Below, piece after piece: positions 136 through 6,152 of a stretch of 48,108 bases of DNA (positions are counted from its first letter, which is position 1; each line of letters starts with the position of its first letter). Both the position numbers and the translations under genes were made by a program. Source of the stretch: Alphaproteobacteria bacterium. GTDB lineage: Bacteria > Pseudomonadota > Alphaproteobacteria > Acetobacterales > Acetobacteraceae. Below the pieces are notes generated by a model, which did no database searches, had not been told where the DNA came from, and worked only from the letters and a program-made list of their open reading frames with translations. Location of the stretch: assembly GCA_016869735.1 (NCBI GenBank), contig VGDL01000026.1, positions 1 through 48,108 on the forward strand, written 5' to 3'.

Positions 136-220
136 GCGGGCGTGGTGGAATTGGTAGACACGCCGGATTTAGGTTCCGGTGGCGCAAGCCTTGGGGGTTC
201 GAGTCCCTTCGCCCGCACCA
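136..220 (+). tRNA. tRNA-Leu (anticodon UAG)
   Basis: The 85-nt sequence folds as a class II tRNA. Its acceptor stem is GCGGGCG/CGCCCGC, the D-arm carries TGGTAGA, and the anticodon stem CCGGA/TCCGG encloses the loop TTTAGGT with anticodon TAG. A variable arm follows, then the T-loop GGTTCGAGTCC, discriminator A and an encoded CCA at 218-220. It reads CUA and, by wobble, other CUN leucine codons. It lies about 50 nt upstream of the trigger factor gene. Confidence 0.97.
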
Positions 221-271
221 AAGCGCCGCCGGTGTCTTTTGTTTCTCTAGCTTGGGATGGACGATCCTCCG

Positions 272-2122
272 ATGCAGGTTAATGAGCTCGCGTATGAAGG
301 TTTGAAGCGCGCCTATTCCGTGACGCTTCCGGCAGGCGATATCGCCTCCAGCCGCGAAAAGCGCCTTGCGGAAATCGCCAAGACGGTTTCGCTCCCTGGC
401 TTTCGCCCGGGCAAGGTGCCGCTTTCCATTGTGCGTCAGCGCTATGGGACCGCCGTCATGGGCGAAGTGCTCGAAGAATCCGTGAATGATGCGCAGCGCA
501 AGCTGGTCAGCGATCGCGGCCTGAAGCCCGCGCTGCAGCCTAAAATCGAAGTGACGAATTTCGCCGAAGGCGCCGATCTTGAATTCCGCATGGAATTGGA
601 AGTGTTGCCGGATGTGCCGATGCCTGATTTCTCGGGCATCGAGTTGGAACGCCTGCGCGCCGAACCCGCCGATGAGGAAGTCCAGAAAGTTCTGGAAACG
701 CTCGCGACCCGGAATGGCGAATTGACGGATGTGGCTGAAGCCCGCCCCGCCACGAAGGGCGAGGTGATGGTGTGCGATTTCGCTGGTTCTGTGGTGCCGG
801 ATTTGCTGACCAATGGCCCGGCGCTTGGTGCCGTGCCTGGCATCCCTGGTCAGGCGCCGCGCGGTTGGGAAATTGGGCTTTCCGGCGGCTTGAAGTCTGA
901 AATCGCCGCCATCGGCACGGAAGAAGCGCTGCCCTATTTCGACCTTCGCATCAGCGGCAGCGGGACCGAAGCCGGCTGGGTGCAGGTATTCATGGAAGGG
1001 GCGAAGGGCATTGCCGCTGCGCCAGGGGCAACGCATAGCCTCATGGTCAGCACCAAACTAGCTGGCGGCAGCCTGCCGGAAGGCGCCCAGGGCAAGCTCG
1101 GCTTCAATTTCTACAGCCTGGGCCAGGACAGCGTTGACTTCCTGGATATGCAGCGCGAAGGCTTTGATGTGACGGCCGGGCGCAGCACGCTTGCTTTCAC
1201 CTTCCCTGATCAGGCGGAAATCGGCGCCTGCCGGCCCTTTATCTATTTGCATGGCATGGCAGCGGGTGCGGCGGTGGAATTCACGCTGCGGATCGGCCCG
1301 GCGCGGTTGATCGCGGGCACGGAAGAACCCGCCCTTGCCCCCTTCGCGGGTGGGTCGGCCACCGATATGCCGATTGAAGTCGGCGGCCCCGGCTTCATTC
1401 CAGGCTTTACCGAGCAGATGGAAGGGCTTTCCGTGGGCGATAGCCGCGATATCCAGGTGGTGTTTCCGCTGGATTACGGCTCGGCCGAATTGGCGGGCAA
1501 GCGCGCGGTCTTCTCCATTACGGCGAAGAAGCTGCAGCAGCGCGTGCCGCGCGCCATTGATGATGAATTGGCGAAGACGGTCGGGCAGAATGATCTGGCT
1601 GGCTTACAGGCCCAGGTGAAGGAAGGCTTGCAGCGCGAATATGATGGCATGGCGCGCATGCGCCTGAAGCGCGCCCTTTTGGACAAGCTTGCTGATCAGG
1701 CGAGCTTCCCAGTGCCGGAAGGCATGGTGGATGGTGAATTCAGCCAAATCTGGCAGCGCGTGGAAGCCGATTTGAAGGCCGGGCGGCTTGATGCCGATGA
1801 TGCCGGCAAGGATGAGGCGACGCTGCGCGACGAATATCGCGGTATCGCCCAGCGGCGCATCCGGCTTGGCCTGCTGCTGTCCGAGATTGGCCGCAGCAAC
1901 AATATCCAGGTCACACCGGATGAGCTGAGCCGTGCGCTTCGCCAGGAGGCGTCGCGCTACCGTGGCCAGGAACAGCAGGTGATCGAATTCTTCCGCAAGA
2001 ATCCGGAAGCGATGGAAAACCTCCGCGCCCCGATTTTTGAGGAAAAGGTCGTGGATTTCATCCTGGAACTGGCCAAGGTGGCCGAGCGCCAGGTGAAGCC
2101 TGAGGAATTATCGGAAGCCTGA
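272..2122 (+). CDS. tig: Trigger factor with large insertion in PPIase domain
   Basis: Ribosome-associated chaperone that receives nascent chains at the exit tunnel. The N-terminal ribosome-binding domain carries the signature GFRPGKVP at residues 43-50. The FKBP-type PPIase domain begins near residue 162 (KGEVMVCDFAGSVV) and resumes near 358 with FIPGFTEQMEG and FPLDYGSAELAGKRAVF. The C-terminal SurA-like chaperone domain fills about 420-616. Usual length is 430-450 residues; this one has 616 because about 180 residues (roughly 175-357, nt 794-1342) interrupt the PPIase domain in frame. That insert is rich in beta-like segments (PYFDLRISG, VEFTLRIGPARLI) and resembles carbohydrate-binding-like modules of phage tail proteins; this resemblance is inference. 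I chose ATG 272 over ATG 257 because family members begin MQV-. The usual clpP-clpX genes do not follow. Confidence 0.95.
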   Translation: MQVNELAYEGLKRAYSVTLPAGDIASSREKRLAEIAKTVSLPGFRPGKVPLSIVRQRYGTAVMGEVLEESVNDAQRKLVSDRGLKPALQPKIEVTNFAEGADLEFRMELEVLPDVPMPDFSGIELERLRAEPADEEVQKVLETLATRNGELTDVAEARPATKGEVMVCDFAGSVVPDLLTNGPALGAVPGIPGQAPRGWEIGLSGGLKSEIAAIGTEEALPYFDLRISGSGTEAGWVQVFMEGAKGIAAAPGATHSLMVSTKLAGGSLPEGAQGKLGFNFYSLGQDSVDFLDMQREGFDVTAGRSTLAFTFPDQAEIGACRPFIYLHGMAAGAAVEFTLRIGPARLIAGTEEPALAPFAGGSATDMPIEVGGPGFIPGFTEQMEGLSVGDSRDIQVVFPLDYGSAELAGKRAVFSITAKKLQQRVPRAIDDELAKTVGQNDLAGLQAQVKEGLQREYDGMARMRLKRALLDKLADQASFPVPEGMVDGEFSQIWQRVEADLKAGRLDADDAGKDEATLRDEYRGIAQRRIRLGLLLSEIGRSNNIQVTPDELSRALRQEASRYRGQEQQVIEFFRKNPEAMENLRAPIFEEKVVDFILELAKVAERQVKPEELSEA

Positions 2123-2177: not shown

Positions 2178-2308
2178 TTCACGCGCCGCTCCGCCGATTT
2201 TTGTCGGGAAATGAAAGGGGTGGCTTGCAGGAAGGCCGAGCCTCGCATAGGTAGGGTTCAAAGAGGCTTGGCGGTATCAACTGCTGTAAGAAGGGGGGCG
2301 TGGTTCGG

Positions 2309-3085
2309 GTGTCTGACACCATCCTTGAAACGGAAGGGCTTACCAAGGAATTCCGGGGCTTCGTCGCGGTCAGCGACGTGAACCTCAGTGTTCGCCGGGG
2401 CACCATCCATGGCTTGATCGGCCCGAACGGCGCCGGCAAGACCACTTGCTTCAATATGCTGACGAAATTTCTGCCGCCCACCCGTGGCGCCATTCGCTAT
2501 GATGGTCGCGACATTACGGGGATGAAGGCAGCTGAGGTGGCGCGCCTTGGCCTGGTGCGGAGCTTTCAGATCTCCGCCGTGTTTCCGCATCTGACCGTGC
2601 TTGAAAATGTGCGCGTGGCTCTGCAGCGCGCGCGTGGCGGTTCCTTCGATTTCTGGCGTTCCGATTCGGTGCTGCGCAAGTTTGATGCGCGGGCCGAGGA
2701 ATTGCTGGCGGATGTGGGTCTCACGGAATGGATGCACCTGACCGCGGGTGAATTGCCCTATGGTCGCAAGCGCGCGCTTGAAATCGCAACCACGCTTGCG
2801 CTTGATCCGGTGATGATGCTGCTGGATGAACCAACCGCCGGCATGGCGCATGATGATGTGGACCGGGTTGTGGCGCTGGTGAAGCGCGTCTCGGTCGGCC
2901 GCACCATTCTGCTGGTGGAACATAACCTTCGCGTTGTGCAGGGGCTTTGCGATACCATCACCGTGCTCGCGCGCGGCAGCGTGTTGGCGGAAGGTGATTA
3001 CGCAGCCGTGTCGCGCAACCCGGATGTGGTGGCGGCCTATCTTGGCACCGATGCGTCAACCGAAGCGGAGCCGGCCCATGGCTGA
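2309..3085 (+). CDS. livG: Branched-chain amino acid-type ABC transporter ATPase (LivG-like)
   Basis: Cytoplasmic ATPase of a HAAT-family importer. Walker A is GPNGAGKTT (about residue 38-46), the signature region is LPYGRKRALEIA, and Walker B is MMLLDEPTAG, in the slightly divergent form typical of LivG rather than of other ABC ATPases. GTG 2300 and GTG 2309 are both in frame. I prefer 2309 (MSDTILETEGL) because the G-rich Shine-Dalgarno run at 2291-2298 then has a normal spacing. It is the first gene of the liv cluster and overlaps the next ATPase by 8 nt, so the two are probably translationally coupled. The transported substrate is not fixed by sequence; amino acids, amides or urea-like compounds are possible. 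Confidence 0.92.
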   Translation: MSDTILETEGLTKEFRGFVAVSDVNLSVRRGTIHGLIGPNGAGKTTCFNMLTKFLPPTRGAIRYDGRDITGMKAAEVARLGLVRSFQISAVFPHLTVLENVRVALQRARGGSFDFWRSDSVLRKFDARAEELLADVGLTEWMHLTAGELPYGRKRALEIATTLALDPVMMLLDEPTAGMAHDDVDRVVALVKRVSVGRTILLVEHNLRVVQGLCDTITVLARGSVLAEGDYAAVSRNPDVVAAYLGTDASTEAEPAHG

Positions 3086-3821
3086 TGTGATGACCGCCCC
3101 AGCGGGCGCCAAGGCCAGCACTGGCGCCTTGATGGAAATTAGCGGGCTTGAGGCATGGTATGGCGAAAGCCATGTCCTGCACGGCGTGGATATTGATATC
3201 CGCGAAGGCGAAGTGGTGACGCTGCTTGGCCGCAATGGTGCGGGCAAGACCTCCACGCTCCGATCCGTCATGGGCCTGGTGCCGCGCCGCAGCGGTTCGA
3301 TCAAGTATGAGGGCAAGGAATTCGTCAATGCGCGCCCGGATGTGATTGCGCGCGCCGGCATTGCCTATTGCCCTGAGGAGCGCGGGATTTTCGCCTCGCT
3401 CGACGTGACCGAAAACCTGCTGCTGCCACCCATGGTGCGCCCCGGTGGGCTGCCCTTGGATGAAATCTACACGCTGTTTCCGAATTTGAAGGAAAGGGCG
3501 CGCAGCCAAGGCACCAAGCTTTCCGGCGGTGAGCAGCAGATGCTCGCCATTGCGCGCATCCTTCGCACGGGCGCGCGGTTTTTGCTGTTGGATGAGCCTT
3601 CGGAAGGCCTGGCGCCGGTGATCGTGCAGCAAATCGGGCGCACGATCCGTGAATTGAAGAAGCGCGGCTTCACCGTGCTGCTGGTCGAACAGAATTTCCG
3701 TTTCGCGCAAACCGTCGCGGATCGGCATTACGTCATGGAACATGGCCGCGTGGTGGATATGGTCGCGAATGAAGACCTGAATGCATCACTCGATCGGTTG
3801 CATCAATATCTTGGGGTCTAA
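3078..3821 (+). CDS. livF: Branched-chain amino acid-type ABC transporter ATPase (LivF-like)
   Basis: Second ATPase of the importer, 247 residues, partner of the preceding LivG. It has Walker A GRNGAGKT, signature LSGGEQQMLAIAR and Walker B FLLLDEPSEGLAP; the EGLAP extension is characteristic of LivF. An upstream-extended reading from 2934 is possible, but ATG 3078 gives the usual LivF length and an 8-nt overlap with livG. The first 18 residues (to about GALMEISGLEAWYG) are a longer leader than most LivF proteins have. About 138 nt separate it from the binding-protein gene. Confidence 0.93.
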   Translation: MADVMTAPAGAKASTGALMEISGLEAWYGESHVLHGVDIDIREGEVVTLLGRNGAGKTSTLRSVMGLVPRRSGSIKYEGKEFVNARPDVIARAGIAYCPEERGIFASLDVTENLLLPPMVRPGGLPLDEIYTLFPNLKERARSQGTKLSGGEQQMLAIARILRTGARFLLLDEPSEGLAPVIVQQIGRTIRELKKRGFTVLLVEQNFRFAQTVADRHYVMEHGRVVDMVANEDLNASLDRLHQYLGV

Positions 3822-3838
3822 GATGCCTATTCGTGGGA

Positions 3839-3870
3839 TATGTTCGCTAAGCATCCATTTTGCGAACATA
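3839..3870. promoter_or_regulatory. Inverted repeat between livF and the binding-protein gene
   Basis: A perfect 9-bp inverted repeat, TATGTTCGC and GCGAACATA, is separated by 14 nt and starts 17 nt after the livF stop. No T-run follows, so it is either an operator for the downstream gene or an mRNA hairpin. A TTGACT box at 3920-3925, without a convincing -10, lies downstream. Confidence 0.4.
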
Positions 3871-3959
3871 AACCACGTTATGGTTTGCCCGCACTTACCC
3901 AAAAGTCAGGTGATCTTGCTTGACTTGGAAATGCTCTAGCACATCAGCAGGAGGACGTT

Positions 3960-5186
3960 ATGCAACTCTCTCGTCGTAATATGCTTGCCGGAGCGGCCGC
4001 CACAGGCGCCCTGCCGCTCTCTCTTGCCCGCGCGCAGGCGGCGAATACCGTGCGTATCGGTGTCATGACCGATATGTCGGGCATGTATCGCGACAATACG
4101 GGGCCGACTTCGGTGGCCGCCGCGCGCGAATCCGCTGCCGAATTCGGCGCCAGCCATGGCTTCCGGGTGGAGGTGATCGAGGCGGATCACCAGAACCGTC
4201 CGGATGTCGGCGTGAATCTGGCGCGGCAATGGTATGATCAGGGCGTGGACCTGATCATGGATGTGCCGACATCTTCAGTGGGGCTCGCCGTTTCGGGTGT
4301 CGCACGGGAAAAGAACAAGTCCTATATCTGCGTGGGTTCCGCAACCGCGGATCTGACCGGCGCGCAATGCAGCCCGAATACGATCCACTGGGCCTATGAT
4401 ACTTACATGTTGGCGCGCTCCACTGGTGGCGCGACCGTGCGCGCGGGTGGGGATACCTGGTTCTTCATCACGGCTGATTATGCCTTCGGCCATGCGCTGG
4501 AACGCGATACCTCGAATTTCGTGCGCAGCGCCGGTGGGCGCGTTGTCGGGCAGGTGCGCACGCCCTTCCCGGGCACCACGGATTTCTCCTCCTTCCTCGT
4601 GCAGGCGCAGGCTTCCCGCGCGAAGATAATCGGGCTTGCGAATGCCGGGGCGGATACGCAGAATTGCGTGAAGCAGGCGGCGGAATTTGGCCTTACGCGG
4701 CGCGGCATCAAGCTTGCCTCGCTGTTGCTGTTCGTGAATGACGTGCATGGGCTTGGGCTGCAGACGGCACAGGGGCTCGTTTGCACCGAAAGCTTCTATT
4801 GGGACATGAATGACAAGACCCGCGCCTGGACCCAGCGCATGCTGCGGCGCATTCCCACCAACTACCCGAACATGATCCATGCCGGTTGCTATTCCGGTGC
4901 GCTGCACTTCCTGAAGACCGTGGCGGCGATGGGCGTGCCCGCTGCCAAGGCCTCGGGCCTTGATCTGGTTAATAGGATGAAGGCGCAGCCTTCCGATGAT
5001 GATCTGTTTGGCAAGGCAACGATCCGAGCGGATGGCCGTCGCATCATTCCCTCATACCTGTTTGAGGTGAAGACGCCCGCCGAAAGCACGAAGCCCTGGG
5101 ATTACTACAAGCTGCTGCAAACGACGCCCGCCGAAGAGGCCTTCCGCCCAATCGGTGAAGGTGGCTGTGCGCTGGTTCGGTCGTAA
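3960..5186 (+). CDS. Liv-type ABC transporter substrate-binding protein
   Basis: Periplasmic receptor of the liv cluster (Peripla_BP_6, leucine-binding fold), 408 residues. The N-terminus has a Tat-like SRRNMLAG motif, a hydrophobic stretch and a likely cleavage after LARAQA. The mature protein starts NTVRIGVMTDMSGMYRDNTG, the first beta strand and ligand loop of this family. A strong Shine-Dalgarno AGGAGGA lies at 3949-3955, 4 nt before the ATG. A close paralogue lies at 20288-21526; blocks such as ITADYAFGHALERDT and FPGTTDFSSFLVQAQASRAK are almost identical. Such divergent HAAT receptors often bind amides, urea or aromatic acids rather than leucine, so the ligand is unknown. Confidence 0.9.
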   Translation: MQLSRRNMLAGAAATGALPLSLARAQAANTVRIGVMTDMSGMYRDNTGPTSVAAARESAAEFGASHGFRVEVIEADHQNRPDVGVNLARQWYDQGVDLIMDVPTSSVGLAVSGVAREKNKSYICVGSATADLTGAQCSPNTIHWAYDTYMLARSTGGATVRAGGDTWFFITADYAFGHALERDTSNFVRSAGGRVVGQVRTPFPGTTDFSSFLVQAQASRAKIIGLANAGADTQNCVKQAAEFGLTRRGIKLASLLLFVNDVHGLGLQTAQGLVCTESFYWDMNDKTRAWTQRMLRRIPTNYPNMIHAGCYSGALHFLKTVAAMGVPAAKASGLDLVNRMKAQPSDDDLFGKATIRADGRRIIPSYLFEVKTPAESTKPWDYYKLLQTTPAEEAFRPIGEGGCALVRS

Positions 5187-5209
5187 TTGTTTTTGTTGAG
5201 CGCCACTTC

Positions 5210-5247
5210 GCACCCCATGCCTGGCTACTGCCAGCGCATGTCGGTGC
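5210..5247 (+). other. Intercistronic hairpin between binding protein and permease genes
   Basis: CATGCCTGGC (5216-5225) pairs with GCCAGCGCATG (5230-5240) with one bulged C and a TACT loop. Outside this, GCACC (5210-5214) pairs with GGTGC (5243-5247). No T-run follows. Such hairpins between a binding protein and its permeases can stabilise the upstream message and lower permease expression; that role here is inference. Confidence 0.5.
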
Positions 5248-5267
5248 CCTGAGGGAAACATCACCGC

Positions 5268-6152
5268 ATGGATGAGATATTCGGCATACCGGCGCCGCTG
5301 CTCTTTGGACAGCTTCTGCTCGGACTGATCAATGGCGCCTTTTACGCGATGCTGTCACTCGGCCTCGCGGTGATTTTCGGGCTGCTCAACATCATCAACT
5401 TCTCGCATGGCGCCCAATTCATGATGGGCGCCTTCGTGGCCTGGATGCTGCTGCATTACCTTGGCATCGGCTATTGGTGGGCGCTGATCCTCTCGCCTTT
5501 GCTGGTGGGGCTGACCGGCGTCATCCTTGAACGAACGATGATATGTAGGCTCTACAAGCTCGATCATTTGTATGGGCTGCTGCTGACCTTTGGCATATCC
5601 CTGATCATTGAAGGGATTTTCCGAAATCAATACGGCTCCTCCGGCATGCCCTATCGCATTCCGACGCAGCTTTCCGGCGCCTGGGATCTCGGTTTCATGT
5701 TCATGCCGGTCTATCGCGGCTGGGTCGTGGTGTTCGCGCTTTTCACCTGCATCACGACTTGGCTGGTCATCGAAAAGACGCGGCTTGGCGCCTATCTGCG
5801 CGCGGCGACGGAAAACGCGCCGCTGGTGCAGGCCTTTGGCGTGAATGTGCCGCGCATGATTACGCTGACCTATGGGGCGGGTGTGGCACTCGCTGCGCTG
5901 GCCGGCGTGCTTGCCGCGCCGATCTATTCGGTGAACCCGCAAATGGGCACCAATTTGATCATCGTCGTGTTTGCCGTGGTGGTGATCGGGGGGATGGGGT
6001 CCATCCTGGGTTCCGTGCTGACCGGCTTCGGGCTTGGCATTGTTGAAGGTCTGACCAAGGTTTTCTACCCGGAAGCCTCAGCGACCGTCATCTTCATCAT
6101 CATGGTTATCGTCTTGCTGGCGCGTCCTGCCGGCCTTTTCGGGAGGGCTTGA
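5268..6152 (+). CDS. livH: Branched-chain amino acid-type ABC permease (LivH-like)
   Basis: Inner-membrane permease, 294 residues with about eight hydrophobic helices. The N-terminal motif LLLGLINGAFYAMLSLGLAV, followed by IFGLLNIINFSHGAQFMMGA, is diagnostic of LivH. VFAVVVIGGMGSILGS near the C-terminus matches the conserved cytoplasmic-loop region that contacts the ATPase. It is followed after 3 nt by livM, so the two half-channels are co-translated. It should form a heterodimeric channel with LivM. Confidence 0.94.
   Translation: MDEIFGIPAPLLFGQLLLGLINGAFYAMLSLGLAVIFGLLNIINFSHGAQFMMGAFVAWMLLHYLGIGYWWALILSPLLVGLTGVILERTMICRLYKLDHLYGLLLTFGISLIIEGIFRNQYGSSGMPYRIPTQLSGAWDLGFMFMPVYRGWVVVFALFTCITTWLVIEKTRLGAYLRAATENAPLVQAFGVNVPRMITLTYGAGVALAALAGVLAAPIYSVNPQMGTNLIIVVFAVVVIGGMGSILGSVLTGFGLGIVEGLTKVFYPEASATVIFIIMVIVLLARPAGLFGRA

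Follow-up and report, generated by a model that had tools for sequence, protein, structure and literature searches.

The window analysed here is a stretch of 48,108 nucleotides from the genome of a member of the Acetobacteraceae (contig VGDL01000026.1), which is a draft of 131 contigs. It carries tig, the gene of trigger factor (TF), a widespread bacterial ribosome-bound chaperone whose domain layout is generally regarded as constant. The tig reading frame of the window codes for 621 amino acids from the ATG at position 257 or for 616 amino acids from the ATG at 272, the latter start agreeing with the relatives of the gene. The locus comprises the following features:

136 to 220, forward strand: tRNA-Leu gene, directly 5' of tig (ARAGORN)
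257 to 2122, forward strand: tig, trigger factor with an inserted module (reading frame, Pfam, alignment to EcTF)
272 to 703, forward strand: ribosome-binding domain (Trigger_N) with the ribosome-docking motif GFRPGKVP (Pfam; form of the motif according to the available part of PMC11559001)
764 to 793, forward strand: first FKBP segment (VMVCDFAGSV), 5' of the insert (alignment to EcTF)
794 to 1342, forward strand: inserted module of 183 residues, a predicted ten-stranded CBM4/16/22-like beta-sandwich akin to phage tail modules (profiles, AlphaFold, Foldseek)
1343 to 1522, forward strand: remainder of the FKBP (PPIase) domain (Pfam, alignment to EcTF)
1595 to 2068, forward strand: C-terminal chaperone domain (Trigger_C; Pfam)

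By eye, the frames of some relatives also looked as though a tRNA gene lay ahead of tig. In many proteobacteria clpP and clpX are the usual neighbours of tig; the reading frames 3' of the gene in the window (2300 to 6152) resembled, by reading, an ABC transporter set of the branched-chain amino-acid type and not clpP-clpX. No phage-like reading frames were seen by eye among those read beside tig. A search of the 131-contig draft yielded no second TF, leaving the gene of the window as the single one found.

Both ends of the protein were intact. With Pfam, Trigger_N matched residues 6-149 with 131 bits and Trigger_C residues 447-604 with 130 bits, each over nearly the whole profile, while FKBP_C matched residues 363-422 from profile position 25 onward with 34 bits, which is above the cut-off (numbering of the 621-residue form). 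These matches bear out an earlier note on this DNA, according to which a module splits the PPIase domain and leaves the outer domains of TF untouched. The stretch of the docking motif reads LPGFRPGKVPL. Alignment with the TF of E. coli (EcTF, 1w26) by phmmer paired query residue 179 with EcTF 172 and query residue 362 with EcTF 176, i.e. EcTF residues 173-175 are replaced by the insert. It occupies residues 175-357 of the 616-residue form, that is 183 residues, or 182 by the phmmer alignment. The insertion point is the turn of the FKBP hairpin ahead of FxGG, where about three residues are displaced; it lies upstream of the pocket residues 195-233 and the flap is untouched. The available part of PMC9527764 lists E178, I195, F198, Y221 and F233 as PPIase residues of EcTF. 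Four of these five are retained in the window as I376, F379, Y402 and F414. E178 corresponds to A359, a position which is mostly Pro in insert-less relatives and thus not Glu there either. Taken together, the TF of the window shares with EcTF the three domains, the GFRxGxxP docking motif and four of the five listed PPIase residues, and differs from it by a foreign module of about 183 residues in place of residues 173-175.

The tig genes of relatives were then decisive for the reality of the insert. It was present in frame and at the same place in 30 of the 30 tig loci read in Neoroseomonas (29 recognized by a sequence pattern and L058 by separate reading), which included isolates and the one-contig genome G292. 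The sample comprised 35 genomes, of which 34 had a Trigger_N match, four of these being outside the locus reading, and one had no match. The insert is fixed in Neoroseomonas. An assembly chimera or a mis-called frame, to which the draft state of the window genome might lend itself, has a negligible probability against these 30 loci, and an assembly artefact was thus ruled out by the relatives. In the alignment of tig from related genera the insert was patchy outside Neoroseomonas. One locus of that genus, L058 from a metagenome-assembled genome (G398, contig C95), has an in-frame TAG within the Trigger_N match of tig, which may stem from an error in sequencing or mean that the gene is broken.

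An intein or self-splicing element was set aside, as the predicted fold was CBM-like and no intein family was matched. The earlier note had drawn a parallel with SlyD, and it holds insofar as a folded domain sits within an FKBP domain. The site is a different one. In the available part of PMC11013033 the chaperone domain of SlyD/SlpA-type FKBPs is an insert-in-flap, placed in a loop near the active site, whereas the module of the window TF sits in the earlier hairpin before FxGG. Its position ruled out a SlyD-like insert in the flap (80s loop), and because the insertion sites differ the comparison with SlyD is valid in kind alone. No SlyD-like protein appeared among the matches listed in the Foldseek PDB search or the profile search of PDB sequences.

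As a single sequence the insert matched no family of Pfam or PHROGs up to E 10, and a search of PDB sequences gave one row with E 0.46, which we took as chance. Only profile, fold and phage or viral searches linked it to relatives. The AlphaFold model of the insert, computed from an alignment of 69 sequences, was all-beta with ten strands, a pLDDT of 92.6 and a pTM of 0.88. In Foldseek against PDB the top matches were CBM16 (E 1.4e-6), CBM4, a hyaluronan-binding module and CBM22 with E values of 1e-6 to 2e-5; over the 50 rows listed the query TM-scores were 0.24-0.56, which is low to moderate. The matches in BFVD, where named, included phage tail fibres, minor tail proteins and CenC-like proteins. 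The model of full-length TF was weak (pTM 0.38) and does not place the module relative to the cradle.

The kinship with phages was seen at the sequence level, too. A tblastn search of 50,697 phage records with the window insert gave two matches, both in Azospirillum phage Cd at gp49 (30% identity, E 4e-3, 85% covered). A module of a prophage-like protein, L016, matched the same place with 40% identity and E 5e-28. In phage Cd gp49 is annotated as a tail protein; it lies beside a tail-fibre-like gene and the endolysin follows three genes further. Four plasmids of A. brasilense carry a stretch of the same identity to the insert as gp49, annotated as hypothetical. Profile comparison by hhalign linked 17 TF inserts of the genus, including one second-TF insert, to 12 prophage-like modules with 99.9% probability and E 7e-31; for 11 inserts of the genera g17, g4, g64, g6 and g37 the values were 99.5% and E 5e-23. 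A mixed profile searched against PDB sequences gave as the best of seven rows 5e7t_B, 'Minor structural protein 5', with a weak E of 0.0035. The phage of this structure is presumably Tuc2009. A scan of viral contigs produced 338 stretches, 328 of which were confirmed as coding relatives of the prophage-like modules, and 79 loci were kept. The matches of the insert across the family outside the main TF were, among those read, either phage or prophage tail-like by eye or second TFs. Singly, the 12 prophage-like modules had weak family matches in PHROGs, two of them named tail protein, and one of the 12 reached CBM_4_9 with an E of 0.005, which is below the cut-off. The protein with the L016 module (L016, positions 859-2076) carries it toward its C-terminal side, and its N-terminal part resembles what we take to be a baseplate protein of the GP46 type.

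Sequence comparison with gp49 and by hhalign, the predicted fold and the 328 confirmed viral stretches agree with the phage-tail or CBM-like beta-sandwich proposed in the earlier note, and the profile search and structure prediction of residues 175-357 upheld it with a confident all-beta model and matches to CBMs and phage tails. The same note had named as the alternative an ordinary lineage feature without likeness to phage or CBM folds; the insert does characterise the genus as a lineage, yet it resembles both. With the phage tail modules (gp49 of phage Cd; 5e7t) it has sequence-profile and fold kinship and common G, P, W, Y, D and R positions. CBM16, CBM4 and CBM22 are its best Foldseek PDB matches, although the TF insert itself has no Pfam match and its CBM likeness is one of predicted fold. 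Thus the insert almost certainly is a phage-tail-related module of the CBM4/16/22-like beta-sandwich class, and we consider a phage origin highly probable.

Inside TF the module has changed. Structural-looking positions (G, P, W, Y, D, R) are common to the TF inserts across genera and to the phage set. On the other hand, Q and E of a PQxE motif and W of a GQxW motif, which correspond to window residues 345, 347 and 255, were found in 70, 70 and 68 of 70 phage modules and in 0, 1 and 3 of 35 inserts of main TFs. The window insert does not have the PQxE end motif and carries R345 and I347 instead. Acidic residues were about doubled in TF inserts (10.8% versus 4.5% in viral and 5.3% in prophage-like modules), Ser and Thr were reduced (10.9% versus 24.0% and 19.6%) and aromatic residues amounted to 5.3% compared with 7.6% in viral modules. 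The phage modules thus differ from the TF inserts by near-invariant Q, E and W and by fewer acidic residues. Because the residues near-invariant in phage modules are mostly lost in TF inserts, any phage ligand function has probably gone, as judged from the sequences.

Of 397 genomes sampled in the Acetobacteraceae, 372 had a TF match, and in at least 28, from eight genera, a single match spanned the insert. The numbers are lower bounds, because the insert was counted only where one listed match spanned it: at least 13 genomes in g1 (that of the window included), three each in g29, g64, g4 and g17, and one each in g16, g37 and g6. All insert-bearing TFs share one insertion site and the distribution is patchy. 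The other members read of g4, g17, g16 and g37 had no insert, and three pairs of close genomes with short core branches, G372/G396 in g4, G239/G314 in g17 and G319/G245 in g37, differ in its presence. At class level 385 genomes were sampled, 359 of which gave a match; among the matches listed, none but that from the genome of the window itself spanned the insert, and in this search a strongly diverged insert may split and escape. A weak further match to the insert within the window genome (G000, contig C22, 18832-18966, L033; E 0.01 over 45 residues) is probably due to chance.

Insert-less sisters often had a longer, linker-like hairpin loop, which was found in 33 of the 81 rows of a TF alignment. 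Such loops are variable, often end in EPFPGG and occur in mixed genera including g4, g17 and g37 (L204-L242, e.g. L232 and L221); they contrast with the short turn of g16 and the outgroups. The longer loop may have been left behind by a lost module, or it may mark the place where the module first landed.

The history of the module was analysed with trees of the TF core, from which the insert had been removed, and of the module itself. The core tree had 81 rows, namely 35 with insert, 33 with the longer loop and 13 with the short turn. It included 20 of 30 Neoroseomonas tigs, the ten left out being near-identical or partial, and omitted the insert-less L209 and L239. Insert presence required at least nine changes on this tree, five of them forced by strongly supported branches. 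With 13 second TFs added the numbers were ten and eight, respectively. A single clade of insert-bearing TFs was rejected with a p-AU of 7e-32. The module tree gave a different picture. TF modules and phage modules formed two groups separated by one change, with 37 TF and 70 phage rows as well as with 33 and 69 rows after five long-branch rows had been left out. The same was true when the second TFs were included (48 TF and 70 phage modules; SH-aLRT 99), the split being supported at SH-aLRT 98-99 across the three trees. All trees were quick, unrooted searches with SH-aLRT support, and two of them bring long branches together.

One group of TF modules together with many changes on the core tree can be read as one capture followed by spread and loss among TFs. 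Because parsimony alone favours nine gains over a single basal gain, which needs 19 losses, this reading requires spread of the module between TFs. Further, the phage modules were gathered with patterns derived from the prophage-like modules, and their forming one group is therefore partly built in. As the root was not inferred, the direction from phage to host was deduced from the wide viral and the narrow host distribution. With this in mind we consider a single capture of the module into TF likely, and we infer exchange as the cause of its patchiness.

The pace of change differed between lineages. Three pairs from the clade of the window had an insert dN/dS of 0.07, 0.13 and 0.20 compared with 0.06, 0.06 and 0.09 for the core; the insert is under purifying selection there. 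The proportions of fourfold differences at conserved residues in insert and core were 0.33/0.33, 0.23/0.21 and 0.30/0.37 for three pairs with the window, i.e. no difference. A single one of six window-clade pairs differed, L054/L061 with 0.42/0.26 (34/81 versus 36/141; p 0.016, uncorrected and from many pairwise tests).

Pairs within g4 and g17 behaved differently. Their cores were 89-96% identical, while the inserts had 28-38% identity in five of six pairs and 59% in the sixth. The g17 pair L088/L089 had 96% identity in the core and 38% in the insert. Fourfold differences at its conserved residues were 16 of 28 in the insert versus 24 of 148 in the core (p 1.5e-5, likewise uncorrected among many tests), and the nucleotide difference per block jumped at the insert borders from 0-0.17 in the core, with 0.50 in a short last block, to 0.35-0.52 in the module. 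L087 of g4 showed the same pattern with L082 and with L083. It was milder, yet with an excess of fourfold change, in L040/L042 of Neoroseomonas (insert 70%, core 97%) and in L082/L083 (insert 59%, core 92%). In L068/L038 the insert changed fast with a dN/dS of 0.78; fourfold differences were 17% in both insert and core and thus not in excess. We conclude that outside the window's clade the module is exchanged, diverges fast or does both; a high mutation rate by itself could likewise increase the fourfold change.

The module was also met in 13 second TF-like genes that were read (L255, L256, L259, L266, L270, L280, L281, L015, L014 and L275-L278). Since these were found mostly via the module, its presence in all of them is no result. 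Five, in Neoroseomonas, have the docking motif or a close form of it. The eight from outside the genus comprise seven without the GFRxGxxP motif and one that is cut at the motif. Among nine scanned with Pfam, Trigger_N or Trigger_C was above the cut-off in seven and below in two, and FKBP_C was above the cut-off in none. Their cores cluster within the Neoroseomonas branch with a support of 99 and very long branches. For comparison, the available part of PMC11559001 reports TF homologues without the ribosome-docking motif from Myxococcus xanthus. Like several of the second TFs here these are extra copies with the docking motif lost; that text describes no inserted module in them, whereas the second TFs here carry one. 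Six neighbourhoods of second TFs were fetched and ten neighbouring reading frames from five of them were scanned. By raw count four of the five (L283, L284, L285 and L286) had genes for glycosyltransferase, sulfotransferase or RTX/Hint proteins: two had glycosyltransferases, one of these along with a sulfotransferase-like gene below the cut-off, one a sulfotransferase and one an RTX/Hint protein; the fifth had neither.

We lean towards the following explanation as a whole. A CBM4/16/22-like module of phage tails would have been domesticated in TF, at a beta-hairpin tip in the PPIase domain, where it leaves the two ends of TF and the larger share of its catalytic pocket intact. It probably entered the trigger factors of the Roseomonas group of the Acetobacteraceae once. 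Loss, passage between trigger factors and cassette exchange at the one site would have followed, with fixation in Neoroseomonas. The module may give the PPIase head a further surface for contact with clients and thereby widen or bias the set of nascent chains that TF holds or isomerises. We put forward this role as an accessory client-contact domain, like the chaperone insert of SlyD in kind, only tentatively. A role in Neoroseomonas is likely because the pocket is retained, the insert is fixed and selection on it is purifying; because the module is patchy outside that genus, its dispensability is likely as well.

The main rival, next after the client-contact reading, is a tolerated decoration: the hairpin tip would be permissive and the module without a role, free to diverge or to be lost. 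Patchiness within genera at short core branches (G372/G396, G239/G314, G319/G245) speaks for it. The insert identities of 28-38% in five of the six g4 and g17 pairs, at 89-96% core identity, suit a dispensable part, and the longer linker-like loops of insert-less sisters (33 of 81 rows) fit in as well. Against it speak the retention of the module in all 30 Neoroseomonas loci read, its dN/dS of 0.07-0.20 in three window-clade pairs, the structural-looking positions preserved across genera and its location in the sole TF found in the window genome. On balance we regard decoration as rather unlikely, though a serious alternative. It is improbable that the module takes part in conflicts with phages, hampering the folding of phage tail proteins or being bent to it, with fast change and exchange as the outcome. 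Its nearest relatives in phage tails and the sharp edges of change at the module borders in L088/L089 (blocks of 0-0.17, the last 0.50, in the core versus 0.35-0.52 in the module; fourfold 16/28 versus 24/148, uncorrected p 1.5e-5) would suit such a conflict. In the window's clade, however, the module mostly tracks the core, with one pair of six (L054/L061) differing, and none of the reading frames read beside tig looked phage-like by eye.

Still less probable is a lectin, i.e. a module that binds glycans as before and guides TF to glycosylated or exported clients. The best Foldseek PDB matches are carbohydrate-binding modules and by raw count some second TFs have genes for glycosyltransferase, sulfotransferase or RTX proteins in their vicinity. 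Yet TF works in the cytosol, the aromatic residues have fallen to 5.3% from 7.6% in viral modules, and hardly any main-TF insert keeps the W, Q or E of the phage modules. Compared with the client-contact reading, which we prefer, a wider scheme is speculative and in our view unlikely: the TFs of the Roseomonas group might use phage tail modules as a plug-in cassette for client specificity, swapped between species at the one hairpin, and a second, partly ribosome-independent TF family might have arisen with it to serve surface or secreted proteins that are beta-rich or linked to glycans.

In the open-access literature (PMC), none of the titles and abstract openings listed described such an insert in trigger factor. 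It represents an unusual route from structural parts of phages into a core housekeeping protein. A phage-derived module in the PPIase head that was gained, lost or exchanged several times amounts to a natural experiment on the role of this domain, and the near strain pairs with and without it (G372/G396, G239/G314 and G319/G245) allow the choice of clients and the PPIase function to be tested directly. As a separate observation, the TF of the window (257-2119) matched phrog_26774 with E 8e-80, a family of unassigned function; a TF-like family is thus counted among phage proteins in PHROGs.
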